DNA of 64,000 nucleotides, taken from positions 2,170,001 to 2,234,000 of the forward strand of contig NZ_CP087164.1 in assembly GCF_021172045.1 (NCBI RefSeq), given 5' to 3'. The position numbers were made by a program, and so were the translations under genes. Below, piece by piece: positions 4,159-35,334 of this stretch (position 1 is its first letter; every line of letters begins with the position of its first letter). The stretch is from Capillimicrobium parvum. GTDB taxonomy: Bacteria; Actinomycetota; Thermoleophilia; Solirubrobacterales; Solirubrobacteraceae. The notes beneath the pieces were generated by a model. The model made no database searches, was not told the origin of the DNA, and was given only the letters and a program-made list of their open reading frames with translations.

Positions 4159-5629
4159 GACGCCGCTGCAGGGCGAGACGATCGAGACCATCTACGAGAA
4201 GGGGGCGCCCGGACGGCGCGCGTTCGTCGCGCCGGAGCTCGACGTGCCGCAGGTCGACGGACTGCTCCCGGACGAGCTGCGCCGCGCCGAGGGACCGCGG
4301 CTGCCCGAGCTCTCCGAGCCGGAGATCGTCCGCCACTACGTCCGGCTGTCGAAGCGCAACTTCGACCTCGACTCGGGCTTCTACCCGCTCGGCTCGTGCA
4401 CGATGAAGCACAACCCGCGCCTGCACGAGCGGGTCGCGGCCCTGCCCGGGCATGCGCGGCTGCATCCGTTCCAGCACCCGAAGCGGGCGCAGGGCGCGCT
4501 CGAGCTGATGTGGAACCTCGAGCGGGCGCTGGGCGAGATCAGCGGGCTGCCGCACGTGTCGCTGCAGCCGAGCGCCGGCTCGCACGGCGAGCTGGCCGGC
4601 GTCCTGCTGGCCAAGGCCTACCACGCCGACCGGGGTGAGACGCGGACCAAGGTGCTCACGCCCGACACCGCGCACGGGACGAACCCGGCGACGGTGACGA
4701 TGGCCGGGCTCGAGGTGGTCAAGGTCGGCACGAACGCCGACGGGGGCGTCGACCTCGACGACCTGCGCGCGAAGGCCGGCGAGGACGTCGCGTGCCTCAT
4801 GCTGACGAACCCGAACACGCTCGGGGTCTTCGACGCGAACATCGAGGAGATCGCCCGCATCGTCCACGACGTCGGCGCCGTCCTCTACTACGACGGCGCG
4901 AACCTCAACGCGATCATGGGCATCACCCGGCCGGGCGACATGGGCTTCGACATCGTGCACTTCAACCTGCACAAGTCGTTCACCCAGCCGCACGGCGGCG
5001 GCGGGCCGGGGTCGGGGCCGATCGCGGTCTCCGAGCGCATGGAGCCCTACCTCATGAACCCGCGGATCGTGCGCGACGACGACGGGTCGTTCGATCTGCG
5101 CGACGTCAGCGAGAAGTCGATCGGGCGCCTGCGCGGCTTCCAGGGCAACTACGGCTGCTTCGTGCGCTCCTACGCGTACATCCGCTCGCTGGGCGCCGAG
5201 GGCCTGAAGGACGCCAGCGTCAGCGCGGTCCTCAACGCGAACTACCTGCTCGCCCGGCTCGGCGACGTCGCCGAGCACCTGCCGCTCGCCTACGGGCGGC
5301 TGTGCATGCACGAGTTCGTCCTGTCCGGCGCGCCGATGAAGCGCGAGCTCGGCATCAAGACCCTCGACCTCGCCAAGCGCCTGCTCGACCACGGCTACCA
5401 CCCGCCGACGGTGTACTTCCCGCTGCTCGTCGACGAGGCGCTGCTCATCGAGCCCACGGAGACCGAGACGCGCGAGACGCTCGACGGGTTCGCCGACGCG
5501 ATCAAGACCATCCTGGCCGAGGCGGCCGAGGATCCGGAGATCGCCCGCACCGCGCCGCACACCACGCCGGTCCGCCGCCTCGACGAGGCCGGCGCGGCGA
5601 AGCGGCCCGTCATCCGCCAGCCGATGTAG
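4145..5629 (+). CDS. gcvPB: Glycine dehydrogenase (decarboxylating) subunit 2, P-protein beta
   Basis: This 494-aa protein is the PLP-binding half of the split P protein. The Schiff-base lysine is Lys277 in HFNLHKSF, preceded by ANLNAIMGITRPGDMGFD and followed by the glycine-rich PHGGGGPGSGP loop. FYPLGSCTMKHNPR (about 80-91) and SLQPSAGSHGELAG are strongly conserved family segments. It is the last gene of the gcv locus. It is convergent with the manganese catalase gene, and a 16-bp-armed hairpin sits between the two stops and may terminate transcription. Confidence 0.97.
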   Translation: MAATETPLQGETIETIYEKGAPGRRAFVAPELDVPQVDGLLPDELRRAEGPRLPELSEPEIVRHYVRLSKRNFDLDSGFYPLGSCTMKHNPRLHERVAALPGHARLHPFQHPKRAQGALELMWNLERALGEISGLPHVSLQPSAGSHGELAGVLLAKAYHADRGETRTKVLTPDTAHGTNPATVTMAGLEVVKVGTNADGGVDLDDLRAKAGEDVACLMLTNPNTLGVFDANIEEIARIVHDVGAVLYYDGANLNAIMGITRPGDMGFDIVHFNLHKSFTQPHGGGGPGSGPIAVSERMEPYLMNPRIVRDDDGSFDLRDVSEKSIGRLRGFQGNYGCFVRSYAYIRSLGAEGLKDASVSAVLNANYLLARLGDVAEHLPLAYGRLCMHEFVLSGAPMKRELGIKTLDLAKRLLDHGYHPPTVYFPLLVDEALLIEPTETETRETLDGFADAIKTILAEAAEDPEIARTAPHTTPVRRLDEAGAAKRPVIRQPM

Positions 5630-28139: not shown

Positions 28140-28607
28140 TCAGGCCACGCGCGGCAGCCCGCCGTCGAGTGCGCCCAAAAGCCCCTCGGCGATCGCGTCG
28201 GGTGTCGGCGGGCAGCCGGGGATGCGGACCGCGACGGGCAGGAGCTCCTCGAGCGGCTCGGCGAGCGCCGCCGGGTCGCCGAGCACGTTGCAGCCCATCG
28301 CGCAATCGCCCAGCGCGGCGACGAGCCGCGGCTCGGGCATCGCGGCGTAGGCGGCGAGCAGCGCCTCGCGCATGCGGGTGGTGACGGGCCCGGTGACGAG
28401 CAGGATGTCCGCGTGGCGGGGCGAGGCGACGATGCCGATGCCGAAGCGCTGCAGGTCGTAGAACGGGCTCGCGGCGGCCTGCAGCTCGTGCTCGCAGCCG
28501 TTGCACGAGCCGGCATCGACGTGGCGGACGGCGAGCGAGGCGGGGCGGCCGCGGGGCAGGCGGGCGTCGCGACGGACGCGATTCAGCTGGCGGAGAAGGA
28601 CGTGCAT
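28140..28607 (-). CDS. Hydrogenase small subunit-like protein (HyfI/HycG, NuoB family)
   Basis: This 155-aa NuoB-family protein keeps all four proximal [4Fe-4S] cysteines: Cys35 and Cys38 in SCNGCEHEL, Cys102 in GDCAMGC and Cys132 in PGCPPTP. It would pair with the large subunit at 28607-30040 and pass electrons through this cluster. The size fits the HyfI/HycG branch of group-4 hydrogenases. It is the last gene of the ArsR-headed operon, joined by a TGATG junction, and faces scpB. Confidence 0.9.
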   Translation of the reverse strand: MHVLLRQLNRVRRDARLPRGRPASLAVRHVDAGSCNGCEHELQAAASPFYDLQRFGIGIVASPRHADILLVTGPVTTRMREALLAAYAAMPEPRLVAALGDCAMGCNVLGDPAALAEPLEELLPVAVRIPGCPPTPDAIAEGLLGALDGGLPRVA

Positions 28608-30040
28608 CAGCGGTCGGCGCAGGCGTAGCAGAGCTCGAAGCTCTTGTTGATGAGCGGGAAGTCGGGCAGGAGGTTGCCCGCGGCGGCGTGGGCGACCGCG
28701 GGCCAGTTCGCGTACGAGCCGGTGCGCAGGTGTACGCGCGCGACGCGGTCGCCGTCGAGCTCCACGGCGCAGAGCGTGGCGCCGCGCGGGCTCTCGACGA
28801 GGCCGGTGCCGAAGTTCGGCGCGTCCCGGGCCGCGGTCACGACGCCGCCGGGCGCGATCTCCCCGCTCGCCAGCAGCTCCCCGAGCACGGCGCACGTCGA
28901 CTCGAGCTCGAGCGCGCGGACCTGCAGGCGTGCGCGCACGTCGCCCGCCGGAGCCTCGGGCACCGCGGCCGCCAGGTCGCCGTAGGCGAGCCGCGGTGAG
29001 GTGGTGCGGACGTCCTCGCGGACGCCCGACGCGCGCGCGGCCGGGCCGACGGCGCCGAGCCGCACGGCGTCGTCGCGCGTGAGCACCCCGACGCCGTCCA
29101 GGCGCGCCTGGACCGACCGGGCGAACATGAGCGACCGCCACGCCTTTGCCGCGTCGTCGCCGATCGAACGCACCGCCTCGCCCGCGGTACGGGCGGCACC
29201 GCCGGACAAAGCGAGCGTGCTCCCGCCGACGGCCACCGAGCCGAACAGGAACCGGTGGCCGGTGAGCCGCGCGTTGAGCCGCTGCGCGCGTTCCTTGAGC
29301 GCCGCGAACGCCATCGCCCCGGGCGCGAACCCGACTCCCGCGCAGACGGCCGAGACGTCGTTGAGGTGGTTGTACAGGCGCTCGAGCTCGAGCAGGAGGG
29401 TGCGCGCCACGCGCAGGTCGTCGGACGGCCGGCGCCCCTGCGCCAACTCCACCGCCTGCGCATAGGCCACCGAGCTCGCCACGTGGCACGCCGCGCACGC
29501 CCGCCCGACGTGGGCCAGCCCGTGGTCGGCGTCGCCGCCCTGCGCCGCGCGCTCGAGGCCCCGATGCTTGTGGAACAGCCGCGCATCGAGCGCCAGGATG
29601 CGCTCGCCGACGAGGTGGAAGCGGAAGTGCCCGGACTCGATGACGCCGGCGTGGATCGGACCGACCGCCACGTCGTGGACGCCCTCGCCGGTCATGGGGA
29701 CCGTCCACGCGGAGGGGTCGGCCGGGTGGTCGACGAGCGGACGCAGCGGCTCGTGGCCGTCGAAGCCGAGCCCGTGCAGATCGTGGGCCTCGCGCTCGTC
29801 CCAGCCCGCCGCGGGCGCGAGGTCCACGACGCTCGGCACGCGCCGGGCCGCGCTGCGGCAGGCCAGCGAGCGCACCAGGGCGCCGTGCGCGACGAGGACG
29901 CGCCAGCGCAGCTCGTCGCCGTCATCGGTCGCGTAGGCGCCGGCGAAGCGCCCGCCGCCGTCGAGCGCCGCGGCGACCGCCTTGCGCCACAGGGGCAGCG
30001 GGACGTCGGCCGCGGTGGGCTTCGCCACGGCAAGGGTCAT
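28607..30040 (-). CDS. Group-4 [NiFe]-hydrogenase large subunit-like protein (HyfG/HycE)
   Basis: This 477-aa protein fuses a NuoC-like N-terminal domain (about 1-120; PSVVDLAPAAGWDEREAHDLHGLGFDGHEPLRPLVDHP) to a NuoD/hydrogenase large-subunit domain (about 122-477; GPIHAGVIESGHFRFHLVGE, KHRGLER). Both CxxC pairs that could ligate nickel are present: Cys182/Cys185 (GRACAACHVAS) and Cys471/Cys474 (ELCYACADR). The L2 motif lacks the usual Asp-Pro before its first cysteine. The chain ends right after this motif, so there is no C-terminal peptide for protease maturation. Either a true hydrogenase or a related ion-pumping redox module is possible. No hyp maturation genes are in the window. Confidence 0.87.
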   Translation of the reverse strand: MTLAVAKPTAADVPLPLWRKAVAAALDGGGRFAGAYATDDGDELRWRVLVAHGALVRSLACRSAARRVPSVVDLAPAAGWDEREAHDLHGLGFDGHEPLRPLVDHPADPSAWTVPMTGEGVHDVAVGPIHAGVIESGHFRFHLVGERILALDARLFHKHRGLERAAQGGDADHGLAHVGRACAACHVASSVAYAQAVELAQGRRPSDDLRVARTLLLELERLYNHLNDVSAVCAGVGFAPGAMAFAALKERAQRLNARLTGHRFLFGSVAVGGSTLALSGGAARTAGEAVRSIGDDAAKAWRSLMFARSVQARLDGVGVLTRDDAVRLGAVGPAARASGVREDVRTTSPRLAYGDLAAAVPEAPAGDVRARLQVRALELESTCAVLGELLASGEIAPGGVVTAARDAPNFGTGLVESPRGATLCAVELDGDRVARVHLRTGSYANWPAVAHAAAGNLLPDFPLINKSFELCYACADR

Positions 30041-31518
30041 GGCGCCACCGTCGCGAGCGAGTCGACCAGCTCCGAGCCGGGCAGCGCGAGGCCGGCCGCG
30101 GTCAGCGCCAGCAGCCCGATGGCGAGCACGGCCGTCATCGCCGCGATGCGCCGCTCGCTGCGCCGCGCCGCGTGGCGGCGGTGGCGGCGGGCGGGTCCGA
30201 CGACCCCCTCGAGCAGCGCGTGCAGCAGCCCGAGGAAGCCGAGCGCGAGCGCGACCGCGGCGATCGCCACGACGGCGGTCCTGCCCGCCTGGATGCCGCC
30301 CGCCAGCACCAGCAGCTCGGAGAGGAACAGCGGCGACGGCGGCAGCCCGCCGAGCGCGCCGAGGCTGACGCCCATCGCCGCCGCGGTGGCGGGGCTCGTC
30401 GCGGCGACGCCGTCCGGCGCGTGGTGCGACGCGCGGGGGTCGTGGCGCAGCAGCGGCAGGGCGGAGTAGAACCCGAGCGACTTCGCCAGGCCGTGGCCGG
30501 CGACGTGCAGCAGGACGCCGGCGATCGCCAGCGGGGTGCCGAAGCCGACGCCGAGCGCGATGACGCCCATGTGCTCGAGGCTCGAGAACGCGAGCAGCCG
30601 CTTGAACGGCAGCGCCCGCCACAGGAACGGGACGGCCACGAGCAGCGACGCGAGGCCGAAGCCGAGGAACAGCGCGCGGGCCGTGCTGGCGCCGACGGCG
30701 GGCTCCAGCGCGTCGCGCACCCGCCAGGCCACGAGCAGCACCGACGGCAGCAGCGCCGCGGAGAGCAGCGCGCTGACCGGCGCGGGCGCCTCGCTGTGCG
30801 CGTCCGGCAGCCAGTTGTGCACGGGCGCCCAGCCGATCTTCGTGGCCAGGCCGGCGAGGATCAGCACGAAGGCCAGCAGGCCGGCCCCCGGGGCCACCGC
30901 GCCGCTGTGCTCGTGCAGTGACCGCCAGTCGAGCGTGGACAGGCCGCCGCCCGGCAGCGCGATCGTCAGCACGACGATGCCCAGCAGCGCGACCGACAGT
31001 CCGAGCGAGGTCAGCACGAGGTACTTCCAGCCCGCCTCGAGCGCGTGGCGGCTGCCGGTGAACGCGACGAGCAGGGCCGACGCGGCGGTCGTGGCCTCGA
31101 CGAGCAGCCACGCGACCCCCAGGTTCCCGGCCAGCGGCACGGCCAGCAGGGCGGCCCAGAACAGGTGCAGCGCGACGTAGTAGCGGGCGCGCGAGCCGCG
31201 CGCTCCGGCGCCGGTGCGTCCTGCGTGGCGCAGGTAGACCGGCGACAGCAGCGCGCTGCCGAGCCCGACGACCGCCGTGAGCGCGAGGAACACGCCGCCG
31301 GCGCCGTCGAGGTACGTCCAGCCGTCGTCGATCGGGGCGGCGCCGCCGCGGGCGAGCACGACCGCCGCGAGCGTCAGCGCGACGGCCGCGGTCAGCACCG
31401 CCACCACGACGTTGCCGGCGTCGGCCTGGCGGGGCGTGCGGGCCGCCGCGACGAGCAGCGCGCCGAGCGCCGGGAGCCCGACGGTCAGCGAGGCGAGCAG
31501 GAGGGCGTGCTCAGTCAC
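30037..31518 (-). CDS. HyfF/NuoN-like proton-pumping membrane subunit
   Basis: This 493-aa polytopic membrane protein (about 14 helices) belongs to the Mrp antiporter-like family. It shows WLLVEATTAASALLVAFTGSRHALEAGWKYLVLTS, the broken-helix region GLATKIGWAPVHNWLPDAHSEAPAPVSALLS with the conserved lysine, and LAFSSLEHMGVIALGVGFG. These identify a HyfF-type subunit of group-4 hydrogenase complexes. The GTG start overlaps the HyfE-like gene by 8 nt and the stop overlaps the large subunit by 4 nt. Confidence 0.9.
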   Translation of the reverse strand: MTEHALLLASLTVGLPALGALLVAAARTPRQADAGNVVVAVLTAAVALTLAAVVLARGGAAPIDDGWTYLDGAGGVFLALTAVVGLGSALLSPVYLRHAGRTGAGARGSRARYYVALHLFWAALLAVPLAGNLGVAWLLVEATTAASALLVAFTGSRHALEAGWKYLVLTSLGLSVALLGIVVLTIALPGGGLSTLDWRSLHEHSGAVAPGAGLLAFVLILAGLATKIGWAPVHNWLPDAHSEAPAPVSALLSAALLPSVLLVAWRVRDALEPAVGASTARALFLGFGLASLLVAVPFLWRALPFKRLLAFSSLEHMGVIALGVGFGTPLAIAGVLLHVAGHGLAKSLGFYSALPLLRHDPRASHHAPDGVAATSPATAAAMGVSLGALGGLPPSPLFLSELLVLAGGIQAGRTAVVAIAAVALALGFLGLLHALLEGVVGPARRHRRHAARRSERRIAAMTAVLAIGLLALTAAGLALPGSELVDSLATVAP

Positions 31519-32128
31519 GCAGGCCCCGCAGCAGCTCGGTGTTGCCGGTGCCCAGCTCGAGATGGATGCGCCGGGTGAAGGCCGCCGCGACCGTCACGAC
31601 GAGCACGAGGTCGACGAGCGCGCCGAGCTCGACGGCGAACGGCACGCCGCCGTGCGCGCCGACCGCGAGGAGCGACAGGCCGTTCTCGGCGACGATCAGC
31701 CCGAGGAGCTGGAAGAGCGTCGGGCGCCGCGCCGCGACGATCGAGATGCCGACGAGGACGAGCGCGACCGCGGCGTCCTCCACCCGCGCGCTCGCCAGGC
31801 CCAGGGGCGGGACGAGGGCGGCGCCGGCCAGCGCCACGGCGACGCCGCCCGCGAGCCGCACGAGCGCGGTGGCGGCGGGCGTGACGGGCGCCGGCTCGCG
31901 CGTGCGCAGGACGACGAAGGCCAGCAGCGCGGGCAGCGCCACCGCCTTCGTCAGCAGGACGAGGGCGGCGACCAGGAACTCGGTGGAGCGCCCCGCCGCG
32001 AGGTGCAGCGCGCCGAGGCTGAGCAGCAGCGACTGCGCGGCGACGAGCGCGATGGCGACCGAGCGGCGGCGCACGGCGATGACCGCCAGGCCGAGCAGCA
32101 GGATCGCCGCGACGAGCGCCGAGCTCAC
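31511..32128 (-). CDS. HyfE-like membrane subunit
   Basis: This 205-aa hydrophobic protein has about six membrane helices and the NuoK-like C-terminal signature LFQLLGLIVAENGLSLLAV, matching HyfE of hydrogenase-4. SLLLSLGALHLAAGRSTEFLVAALVLLTKAVALPALLAF in the N-terminal half carries the conserved TK motif. The GTG start overlaps the HyfC-like gene by 4 nt. In E. coli hyfD sits between hyfC and hyfE; it is missing here. Confidence 0.87.
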   Translation of the reverse strand: MSSALVAAILLLGLAVIAVRRRSVAIALVAAQSLLLSLGALHLAAGRSTEFLVAALVLLTKAVALPALLAFVVLRTREPAPVTPAATALVRLAGGVAVALAGAALVPPLGLASARVEDAAVALVLVGISIVAARRPTLFQLLGLIVAENGLSLLAVGAHGGVPFAVELGALVDLVLVVTVAAAFTRRIHLELGTGNTELLRGLRD

Positions 32129-33042
32129 AGGACGCCTCCGGCGCCCCAGGTCGCGACGCCGGCCAGCGCCACGAGGCAGCCTAGGCCGAGCAGCGACGGC
32201 ACGCGCAGGATGCGCATCTTCGCCTGGGCGGTCTCGAGCACCGCGAGGGCGACGGCGCCCGCGGCGACGGCCGCGGCCGCGAGCCCCAGGGCGCCCGCGA
32301 ACGACGCCGGATGGGGGAGGAACAGCCCGGCGGCCAGCAGCAGCATGAGCCAGTGGCGGGCCGCCGCCGCCCACTGCAGGTAGGCGAGGTCGCGCCCGGC
32401 GTACTCGAGCAGCGGGCCCTCGTGGATCATCGTCAGCTCGAGGTGCGTGTCAGGGTTGTCGACCGGCTGGCGGCCGGTCTCGGCGACCACGACGAGCGCG
32501 AACGCCAGCAGCGCACACCAGTGCGCCGGCTCCGTCCAGATGGCGGTGCCGGCGGCGGAGCCCGACATCGCGACGAGATCGGTCGAGCCGGCCGGCAGCG
32601 CGGCGAGCAGCAGCGCGAGGGCCAGCAGCGCCTCGGCGAACAGCGCGAGGGTCTGGTCGCGGGCCGCGCCCATGAGGGCGAAGCCGCTGCCGGTGTCCCA
32701 CGCCGCCAGCGCCACGGCGACCCGTGCGAGCGCCAGCAGGCCGACGAGCGCGAACGCGTCGTGGCCGAGCCCCCACGGCCCGGAGCGGCCGGCGACCGGG
32801 ACGATGGCCAGCGCGAGGATCAGGCAGGCGGCGACGACCGGTGGGGCGAGCCGGTACGGAAGGCCGGCGCCGAGCGGCTCGACGCCGCTGCGGCTCCACA
32901 GCCGGCGCAGCTCGCGGTAGGGCTGCAGCGGCGACGGGCCGCGACGCCCCTGCATCCGCGCCTTGAGCGCCTGGATCGTCCCCGGTACGAGCGGCGCGAC
33001 CGCGAGCCCGCCGGCCTGCACGACCGCGGCGATCGCGCTCAT
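32125..33042 (-). CDS. HyfC/NuoH-like membrane subunit
   Basis: This 305-aa membrane protein of the NuoH/HycD/HyfC family anchors the soluble electron-transfer arm. Family landmarks are GTIQALKARMQGRRGPSPLQPYRELRRLW at the N-terminal cytoplasmic loop, ALVVVAETGRQPVDNPDTHLELTMIHEGPLLEYAGRDLAYLQW in the middle and AKMRILRVPSLLGLG near the end. It has about eight helices. It overlaps both neighbours by 4 nt. Confidence 0.92.
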   Translation of the reverse strand: MSAIAAVVQAGGLAVAPLVPGTIQALKARMQGRRGPSPLQPYRELRRLWSRSGVEPLGAGLPYRLAPPVVAACLILALAIVPVAGRSGPWGLGHDAFALVGLLALARVAVALAAWDTGSGFALMGAARDQTLALFAEALLALALLLAALPAGSTDLVAMSGSAAGTAIWTEPAHWCALLAFALVVVAETGRQPVDNPDTHLELTMIHEGPLLEYAGRDLAYLQWAAAARHWLMLLLAAGLFLPHPASFAGALGLAAAAVAAGAVALAVLETAQAKMRILRVPSLLGLGCLVALAGVATWGAGGVL

Positions 33043-34970
33043 CCGAGCGCTCCCGTCCGCGCCAGGGCCAGCAGCCCGAGGACGAGCGCGAGCAGGTACG
33101 CCGCGTACGTGCGGACGTTGCCGGTCTGCAGCCGGCGCACGAACGCCGCGCCGCGCAGCCCGTGGCGCGCCGCGTGCTCGCTGACGAAGCGATCGACGGG
33201 CAGCGCGACCTCGCTGGCGTAGTCGACCCCGGTCACGACCCCCGCGGCCTCGGTCACCTCGAGCCGGCGGCGGGGGCGCAGGACCGCCTCGAGCACGAGC
33301 CGCAGCGGCTTCGCGTAGCCGGCGGCCGTCCAGCTCAGTTCGGGCACCACCCGCTGGCCGCACGTCCACGCGGGCGCCGGCGCGGCGCGCCGGCGTCCGC
33401 GCGCCGCCACGAGCAGGCCGGCGACGAGGACGACCGCGATCGCCAGCGCCGCCGTGGGCAGCGAGCCCGTCGCCGGCAGGTCGAGCCCGGGCGTGGCGGG
33501 GACCGTGCCGGCGGACGGGGCGAGGTCGACGAGCACGGGCAGCACCAGTCCCGGCACGAGGCCGAGCACGACGCAGGGGACGGCGAGCAGCACCATCCCG
33601 GCGCGCATCGGCCACGCGGCCTCGCGCGCCTGCGCCACCTCCGGACGGCGCGGCGCGCCCAGCAAGGTCAGGCCGAACACGCTCGTGAAGCACAGCGCCG
33701 CCAGGCCGGCGGTCGCCGCGATCCCCGCCAGCGCCACCGCCCCGGCGAGCGAGATGCCGATCGCCCCGTCGAGCGCGACGTGGAGCATCGACTGCAGGAC
33801 GAGCCACTCCGACGCGAACCCGTTGAGCGGCGGCAGCCCCGCGATCGCCAGCAGGCCGATCGCGAACGCGCCGCCGGTCCACGGCATGCGCCGCAGCAGC
33901 CCGCCGAGGCGGTCGAGGTCCAGGCCGCCGGTCGCGCGCTCGAACGCGCCCGCGCCGAGGAACAGCAGCGTCTTGAAGACCGCGTGATTGACGAGGTGCA
34001 GAAGGCCCGCGGCGAAGGCGATGGCCGACCACTCGGGCTCGCCGGCCGTGGCCAGCACCACCGATGCGCCGAGCGCCGCGGTGACGATCCCGACGTTCTC
34101 GATCGTGCTGAACGCGAGCAGGCGCTTGAGCTCGCCCTGCACGAGCGCGTACAGGACGCCGCCCAGCGCCGACGCGAGCCCGAGCCCCATGAGCACGAGG
34201 CCGAGCCACAGCGGAGCGGGCGCGAGCCACTCGAGCTCGACCCGTATCAGTCCGTACAGGGCGACCTTGACCATGAGCCCCGACATCAGCGCCGAGAGGT
34301 GGGCGGGGGCGACGGGGTGCGCGCGCGGCAGCCAGGCGTGCAGCGGCGCGAGGCCCGCCTTCGTGCCGAACCCGACGAGCGCCGCGACGGCGATGAGCGT
34401 GCCCGTCGCCCCGCCGGGTCCGGCGAGCACAAGGGCCAGGAGCGCGACCCAGACGCCCGCGCCCCCGAGGTGGGTGATCCCGAGGTACAGCAGGACCGCG
34501 GAGCGCGCCTCGTCGTCGCGCCGCGCGGCGAGGATGGCGGCGGCGGGCACGATCGTCATCGCCTCCCAGAAGCCGAGGAACGTCGTGACGTCCCGGGCGG
34601 CGAGCAGCCCGGCGAGCGAGAGCAGGAAGGCCGCGGTGAGCACGGCCACGGCCCGCGGCGCGTGGCCGCCCGGCAGGTAGCCGCGCGCGAAGAGCAGGGC
34701 CGGCGTCGCGGTGAGGCCGAGCACGACGAGGAACAGCCCGCTGAGCGGGTCGAGCCCGAGCGCGGGCCGGATCTGCGCCGACAGCGGAGCGCCGGTCGTG
34801 CCGCCGGCGGCCAGGATCGCGACGCCCCCGACGCCGAGCAGCGCCGCGCCGAGCGCCTGCAGCGTCAGGCCGGCGCGCAGGGCCGCGGCGGCGCGGGACG
34901 CCGCCGGCAGCGCGCCGCCGAGTACCAGACCGGCGGCGCCGGCGAGGCAGATCGCGGTGGCGGGCGTCAC
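33039..34970 (-). CDS. HyfB-like proton-pumping membrane subunit
   Basis: This 643-aa HyfB/HycC-type Mrp-like protein has about 14-16 helices. Signatures are TTFLGFWEAMTIVPAAAILAARRDDEARSAVLLYL, VGFGTKAGLAPLHAWLPRAHPVAPAHLSALMSG (key lysine), LLAFSTIENVGIVTAALG and LLHLVNHAVFKTLLFLGAGAF. The cytoplasmic C-terminal extension WTCGQRV...YAKPLRLVLEAVLRP, followed by a last helix, is specific to HyfB/HycC. It is the first structural gene of the operon and starts 1 nt after the ArsR stop. Confidence 0.92.
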   Translation of the reverse strand: MTPATAICLAGAAGLVLGGALPAASRAAAALRAGLTLQALGAALLGVGGVAILAAGGTTGAPLSAQIRPALGLDPLSGLFLVVLGLTATPALLFARGYLPGGHAPRAVAVLTAAFLLSLAGLLAARDVTTFLGFWEAMTIVPAAAILAARRDDEARSAVLLYLGITHLGGAGVWVALLALVLAGPGGATGTLIAVAALVGFGTKAGLAPLHAWLPRAHPVAPAHLSALMSGLMVKVALYGLIRVELEWLAPAPLWLGLVLMGLGLASALGGVLYALVQGELKRLLAFSTIENVGIVTAALGASVVLATAGEPEWSAIAFAAGLLHLVNHAVFKTLLFLGAGAFERATGGLDLDRLGGLLRRMPWTGGAFAIGLLAIAGLPPLNGFASEWLVLQSMLHVALDGAIGISLAGAVALAGIAATAGLAALCFTSVFGLTLLGAPRRPEVAQAREAAWPMRAGMVLLAVPCVVLGLVPGLVLPVLVDLAPSAGTVPATPGLDLPATGSLPTAALAIAVVLVAGLLVAARGRRRAAPAPAWTCGQRVVPELSWTAAGYAKPLRLVLEAVLRPRRRLEVTEAAGVVTGVDYASEVALPVDRFVSEHAARHGLRGAAFVRRLQTGNVRTYAAYLLALVLGLLALARTGALG

Positions 34971-34971
34971 G

Positions 34972-35334
34972 TCAGGCCCGGCTCCGGGAGGGCTCGAACT
35001 CCTCCCCGGCGAGGTCCTGCAGCAGCGTCCGGCTGCCCTCGAGGCTGCTGGTCAGGATCTCCTTGGCCAGCTGCAGCAGCTCGAGGGTCCGGCGGTCCTT
35101 GACCCGGTAGAAGACGTTCGTGCCCTGGCGGCGCGTCTCGACGAGGTCCTGCTTGCGCAGGGCCGCCAGGTGCTGCGAGGTGCCGCTCGAGTCGAGGTCG
35201 AGCGCCGCCTGCAGGTCGCCCACGGTCCGCTCGCCGTCGCGCAGCAGCTGGAGGATCCGGATGCGCGCCGGATGCCCCAGCGCGCGGAACAGCTCCGCCT
35301 TGCGGACGAACACCGGCGGTTGCGAGGTCGGCAT
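34972..35334 (-). CDS. ArsR-family transcriptional repressor
   Basis: This 120-aa winged-helix protein begins MPTSQPPVFVRKAELFRALGHPARIRILQLLRDGERTVGDL. The recognition region ALDLDSSGTSQHLAALRKQDLVETRRQGTNVFYRV is classic ArsR. From MPTS onward there is no cysteine, and the usual ELCVCDL metal motif reads ERTVGDL, so it is not an arsenic/cadmium alpha-3 sensor. The ATG at 35334 is preferred to a TTG 33 nt upstream, which would run through the operator. It is 1 nt from the HyfB-like gene, so it probably represses the hydrogenase-like operon and itself in response to an unknown redox or gaseous cue. Confidence 0.88.
   Translation of the reverse strand: MPTSQPPVFVRKAELFRALGHPARIRILQLLRDGERTVGDLQAALDLDSSGTSQHLAALRKQDLVETRRQGTNVFYRVKDRRTLELLQLAKEILTSSLEGSRTLLQDLAGEEFEPSRSRA

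Follow-up and report, generated by a model that had tools for sequence, protein, structure and literature searches.

A cysteine-keeping, Ehr-like member of the group 4 hydrogenase and complex I superfamily in Capillimicrobium parvum, probably not a hydrogen enzyme

In the superfamily that joins group 4 [NiFe] hydrogenases with respiratory complex I, the cavity that houses the [NiFe] centre of hydrogenases corresponds to the quinone cavity of complex I. A mycobacterial relative, the Rv0081-Rv0087 (hyc) operon, was reportedly described by He et al. in 2011 as a predicted formate hydrogenlyase (FHL); we take the gene order of the tuberculosis locus to be ArsR-HyfI-B-C-E-F-HycE. Ehr complexes are suspected ion pumps whose reaction is unexplained, and the Sulfobacillus examples, with six genes in synteny, lack the motifs (PMC6349859, PMC4378227). 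MBS is a group 4 relative in which two of the four cysteines are lost and the proximal cluster is used, and stepwise cysteine loss has been proposed (PMC7684303). Here we describe an operon from Capillimicrobium parvum (contig NZ_CP087164.1, abbreviated C1), located in a 64 kb segment (C1:2170001-2234000, hereafter the window) of a 5.95 Mb single-contig genome. It encodes a six-subunit complex of this superfamily which, judged from its sequence, is probably not an H2 enzyme. What is new is a cysteine-keeping variant, called Ehr-like and not filed as Ehr because its four cysteines are kept.

The operon is composed of seven minus-strand genes running from 35334 to 28140, with stops and starts that overlap or nearly touch, in the order ArsR, HyfB-, HyfC-, HyfE-, HyfF-, HycE/HyfG- and HyfI-like (Table 1). 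Searches with tblastn gave no match to E. coli HyfA, HyfH, HycB or HycF in the window, and a third antiporter subunit is absent there, the matches of HyfD being confined to HyfB and HyfF. A six-frame scan of the same segment turned up no 4Fe-ferredoxin motif. An earlier note on this DNA, which listed B, C, E, F, G and I homologues without HyfA/HycB, HyfD and HyfH/HycF, is thus confirmed by gene calls and tblastn. The order ArsR-B-C-E-F-G-I recurs in many of 80 related loci, which puts the observation far beyond chance. Group 4 subunits with ion-pump modules, as in Ehr, are present. In the HyfB-like subunit, antiporter residues K204, K282, E291, H329 and K333 are shared by relatives and E. coli HyfB; in the HyfF-like subunit, E141, K227, H241, K306, H342 and K346 are conserved. 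Of the two options left side by side in the earlier note, hydrogenase or ion pump, these ion-path residues favour the second.

Alignment to HycE places C182, C185, C471 and C474 of the large subunit at the four cofactor cysteines C241, C244, C531 and C534, exactly at the residue numbers proposed previously. Further equivalents are E135 (E193), R419 (R478) and R477 (R537, the end of mature HycE). The surroundings of the cysteines are changed in both motifs. At the first (L1), the consensus RxCGxCxxxH, given for group 4 [NiFe] hydrogenases in PMC4378227, is replaced by RACAACHVAS, in which Gly and His are gone (H248 to S189). At the second (L2), DPCxxCxxH/R has become ELCYACADR, and the canopy pair D529-P530 has become E469-L470; Asp529 is called strictly conserved from hydrogenases through complex I (PMC9474812). 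Mycobacterial-type relatives carry Asn at the canopy Asp position, and Ser and Gly in place of the L2 cysteines. The C-terminus reads ...SFELCYACADR-stop, and this stop coincides with the end of mature HycE, in agreement with the earlier remarks that Asp-Pro is missing before the last pair and that the protein ends right at the motif. That no C-terminal protease is needed holds as anatomy and is silent on activity, for the same end point is seen in relatives devoid of the cysteines and in Ech-like sequences whose motifs are intact. A structure model of the large subunit (predicted local distance difference test, pLDDT, 83) has HycE (7z0s_E) as its top match in the Protein Data Bank (Z 40.9 over 449 residues), followed by complex I subunits (49-kDa subunits, Z 35-38). 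The active-site loops 112-137 and 473-477 have pLDDT <50, and the model has no say on metal geometry.

To assess conservation, a profile search (member, E<=1e-150) was run through 229 genomes of the class. The profile combined the window sequence with 18 of the 80 loci, mostly cysteine-keeping, and still recovered cysteine-less relatives. The class search was used because the first 80 relatives are unfit for L2 conservation, the peptide NKSFELCY having been among those used to find them. Since the samples overlap (G278 is G408, and several phylum and class genomes recur among the first 80 loci), class figures are preferred. Clade members were detected in 42 of the 229 genomes, as 44 sequences. 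C182 is kept in 44/44, and so are E135 and R419; C185 is kept in 40/44, with Asp in the remaining four. C471 and C474 are kept in 42/42 readable sequences, the two others ending at contig ends. Position 189, that of the L1 His, is Asn in 39 of the 44, Ser in two, Thr in one and His in two. Second copies of the complex were found in genomes G570 (locus L179) and G554 (L180), in which the motifs read CGVCSVAH and ELCYSC and HyfI is fused to a degenerate ferredoxin domain; they are nearly alike, so contamination or transfer is possible. The two His residues probably stem from these copies. Five of the first 80 relatives (L007, L012, L016, L034 and L040) have Asp or Gly instead of C185, and all five genomes are HypD-less. 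Three of the four predicted ligands are fixed, and the fourth, C185, is dispensable. In residue comparisons of the relatives, the actinobacterial-type locus L057 was counted with the group L053-L082.

Fe(CN)2CO is assembled on a scaffold formed by HypD and HypC (PMC12134894). HypD was detected in 76 of the 229 class genomes: in 15/42 carriers of the clade and in 61/187 non-carriers (Fisher p=0.72). Hyp genes are therefore no commoner in carriers than in non-carriers, and 27/42 carriers lack HypD; one of the positive carriers, G492, counts by virtue of a fragment below the cut-off. HypD-less carriers include the single-contig assemblies G563, G537 and G075, as well as G494 (3 contigs, completeness 100). 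All seven operon genes were read in G563 and G537; for G494 and G075, the sequence inspected truncates the operon. At the phylum level, HypD occurs in 189/396 genomes and in 3/10 clade-member carriers. HypD was scanned for 50 of the 80 loci, and HypE and other hydrogenases were scanned in chosen genomes; HypE exceeded the cut-off in 6/29, exactly those positive for HypD. No HypD was found for Bacillota relatives with four cysteines and the His (Alicyclobacillus L054, L060 and L062, Sulfoacidibacillus L066). Because HypD-less genomes keep the four cysteines, these do not imply Fe(CN)2CO.

Another [NiFe] large subunit is encoded in 13 of the 15 HypD-positive carriers, the C. parvum genome among them; in the remaining two, G469 and G492, hypD is fragmentary. 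In C. parvum, a separate [NiFe] hydrogenase with a large subunit of 595 and a small subunit of 349 amino acids (aa) has hypE and hypD (C1:3527481-3528563) within about 4 kb, the whole set spanning G000:C1:3523230-3528563 (L181). The presence of hyp genes was proposed in the earlier note as a check of activity. They were indeed found, and we rejected this test because they adjoin a separate hydrogenase here and most HypD-positive carriers possess another hydrogenase; 27 of 42 carriers doing without hypD makes it equally uninformative.

Eighty-two large subunits were placed in a maximum-likelihood tree calculated with the motif columns left out, including rows from 50 of the first 80 loci, 15 of 30 phylum loci and 13 of 20 loci of a further set. 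The window sequence belongs to an actinobacterial-type clade of 27 rows (support 100/99), which becomes 28 rows with the addition of one Bacillota sequence (100/98). At the next node, six actinobacterial sequences without the cysteines join (98/88), so that the nearest sister is cysteine-less, and no clustering with hydrogenases was seen. HycE/HyfG form their own clade outside, in a tree whose outgroups are E. coli FHL, Hyf and Nuo plus actinobacterial references only, with few other group 4 subgroups sampled. The L2 cysteine pair requires three changes on this tree. An atypical membrane-bound hydrogenase, as suggested earlier, finds no support in this placement; grouping with cofactor-less Ehr proteins, named beforehand as an outcome that would speak against it, was observed in that the window clade adjoins a cofactor-less one. 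In the cysteine-less sister clade, locus L178 has HyfI near 4533 with altered cluster motifs (GPACGGG, GSPPP) and a HyfH-like match.

On the electron side, the cluster ligands C35, C38, C102 and C132 of the HyfI-like subunit are invariant among the compared relatives, and this subunit contains no ferredoxin domain. Many Chloroflexi and Bacillota relatives have such a domain, either fused to HyfI or in a separate frame ahead of it. Actinobacterial-type loci are without a ferredoxin motif in 47 of 49 cases, and the matches in the other two lie in other frames and look chance-like by eye. Among scanned genomes, HypD accompanies an intact motif in 12/15 and a degenerate one in 1/2; where ferredoxin is absent, it was found in 0/3 outside the actinobacterial-type clade and in 8/30 within it. 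Tracking of hyp loss by ferredoxin loss is only suggestive, and an independent-pairs test had no power. In Alicyclobacillus L060 and L062, a separate ferredoxin-like frame lies between HycE and HyfI, and HypD is missing. No conserved gene besides ArsR stands next to the operon in the 80 loci (partners encoded elsewhere were not sought), and ArsR does so in 45 of them. This agrees with the ion-pump option of the earlier note, in which the electron partner is unknown.

We consider it reasonably probable (about 0.7) that the operon encodes an Ehr-like, redox-driven ion pump, a six-subunit member of the complex I/group 4 superfamily that neither makes nor uses H2. We do not class it as a hydrogenase, because motifs, hyp distribution and tree all fail to support one. 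A soluble donor would dock straight on HyfI, since neither a ferredoxin subunit nor such a domain remains. From there, electrons would pass through the single proximal [4Fe-4S] cluster to the cavity between HycE, HyfI and HyfC, where a redox event would drive HyfC, E, F and B to move protons or sodium. This cavity would keep Glu135, Arg419 and Cys182/471/474 (mostly also Cys185), and in most carriers it would hold no Hyp-made NiFe(CN)2CO. We infer that the result for the clade extends to the hyp-positive genome of C. parvum, in which occasional maturation is possible.

Several points weigh against the pump without H2 chemistry. The invariance of C182, C471 and C474 in readable members, together with the kept Glu135 and Arg419, looks like a working metal site and not a relic. 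The CxxC spacing in the HyfI-like subunit is of the hydrogenase type, unlike that in complex I or MBS, and hypD and hypE are present in this genome. Many carriers are draft assemblies in which any single HypD absence may be an assembly gap; the HypD argument rests on numbers and on the three single-contig assemblies. Ion pumping by the complex is deduced from homology, and no biochemistry of any clade member was found in the literature.

The kept residues and the distribution of hyp genes pull in opposite directions: three invariant cysteines sit badly with an empty site, and 27 hyp-less carriers with a Hyp-made centre. Tentatively, and with the odds well against it, Glu135, Arg419 and Cys182/471/474, plus Cys185 or the Asp in its place, could form a working mononuclear or homometallic Cys-ligated centre built without HypD. 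A genuine, divergent [NiFe] group 4 hydrogenase, fed by a soluble ferredoxin, matured by the hyp set of the other hydrogenase and independent of a C-terminal protease, seems unlikely. The four cysteines, Glu135, Arg419 and the hypD and hypE genes agree with it, and the CxxC motif is likewise the end of Ech-like sequences in which CGIC and DPC are intact; yet the motif Gly, His and Asp-Pro are lost, C185 varies, the nearest sister clade is cofactor-less, 27 of 42 carriers have no HypD, and carriers show no excess of hyp genes.

We regard as similarly improbable that the cysteines are leftovers around a metal-free cavity in which an organic carrier such as menaquinone is reduced or oxidised, as in complex I. 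Complex I and the cysteine-less relatives do exist without these residues, and the model also matches the 49-kDa subunits, but three of the cysteines are invariant across a deeply split clade, and both the complex I His (NuoCD His224) and its adjacent-Cys cluster motif are missing. Reduction of sulfur compounds at or near the proximal cluster, as in archaeal MBS, is very improbable. MBS as described above (PMC7684303), with two cysteines lost and the proximal cluster used, would offer a precedent; MBS needs a three-Cys cluster, however, whereas the window protein has four invariant ligands with hydrogenase-type CxxC spacing, and the surroundings of the operon show no conserved sulfur gene.

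Genes flanking the operon are of the household type, with tryptophanyl-tRNA synthetase at one end and, at the opposite end, RlmN, AroH, DAHP synthase and a pseudouridine synthase. The ArsR protein has Rv0081 (6jmi, E 5e-18) as its best match among solved structures. Contigs of a Sporomusaceae (L080) and a Myxococcales (L072) relative apparently contain two tandem clusters of the complex each, and in a metagenome-assembled genome (L031), HycE and HyfI share one 618-aa open frame, which can be a fusion or a frameshift.

Table 1. Operon genes and large-subunit motifs, in window coordinates
Feature	Position	Strand	Basis
ArsR-family regulator, first operon gene	34972..35334	-	HTH_5 + HTH_metalloreg; open reading frame open to 35367, likely start 35334
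HyfB-like antiporter subunit, 643 aa	33039..34970	-	hydrogenase 4 subunit B, E 1.9e-146, below curated cut-off
HyfC/NuoH-like membrane subunit, 305 aa	32125..33042	-	PF00146; 36.5% identity to E. coli HyfC
HyfE-like membrane subunit, 205 aa	31511..32128	-	hydrogenase 4 membrane subunit, E 1.3e-13, below curated cut-off
HyfF-like antiporter subunit, 493 aa	30037..31518	-	hydrogenase 4 subunit F, E 8e-76, below curated cut-off
HycE/HyfG-like large subunit, 477 aa, NuoC-like and NuoD-like parts	28607..30040	-	PF00329 + PF00346; HycE 7z0s_E, E 4e-50
L1 motif C182-A-A-C185 (HycE C241/C244)	29486..29497	-	alignment to HycE
L2 motif E469-L-C471-Y-A-C474-A-D-R477 before stop (HycE D529-P-C531..C534..R537)	28610..28636	-	alignment to HycE
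HyfI/NuoB-like small subunit, 155 aa, with a single proximal [4Fe-4S] site	28140..28607	-	PF01058

The rule that four cysteines plus hyp genes make a [NiFe] hydrogenase fails for this clade, because whole HypD-less genomes keep the cysteines and hyp genes mostly accompany another hydrogenase. Genome surveys could in this way wrongly credit soil Thermoleophilia with H2 metabolism. The series from four cysteines, through Cys185 replaced by Asp, to none is a natural one, suitable for probing what replaced [NiFe] on the way toward complex I-like pumps. Searches of an open-access library brought up no description of four-cysteine members from hosts without hyp genes, which is not proof of absence.

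In comparison with known systems, the complex resembles Ehr in its subunit set, in its place on the tree beside cofactor-less members and as a suspected ion pump; Ehr is defined by loss of the Ni/Fe-coordinating residues, whereas the window protein keeps four cysteines within broken motifs. With E. coli FHL-1 and Hyf (group 4a) it shares 31.7% (HycE) and 33.7% (HyfG) identity, as well as the top structural match. It differs from them in having no HycB/HyfA, HycF/HyfH or HyfD and no C-terminal extension of the large subunit, in the broken motifs and in the separate clade of HycE/HyfG. Pyrococcus MBS and MBH belong to the same superfamily, but the proximal cluster in the window is four-ligand and hydrogenase-type, and no Mrp module was seen in the operon. 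Unlike complex I, the adjacent-CC motif of NuoB is absent (C35xxC38 here), and the position of E. coli NuoCD His224 (HycE D192) is occupied by Ile134. The Rv0081-type operon is alike in combining an Rv0081-like ArsR with HyfB, C, E, F, G and I and no ferredoxin subunit, so the subunit composition that seemed odd in the window is, as far as gene content tells, common to this type. Other actinobacterial genomes, two of them presumed Mycobacterium, have the order ArsR-HyfI-B-C-E-F-HycE and have lost the four cysteines. Rv0081-type operons thus differ in having HyfI as the first structural gene, while it is the last here, and in large subunits devoid of all four cysteines (NLSYAGNDL and similar). 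The relationship bears on the mycobacterial operon, which is still labelled formate hydrogenlyase.
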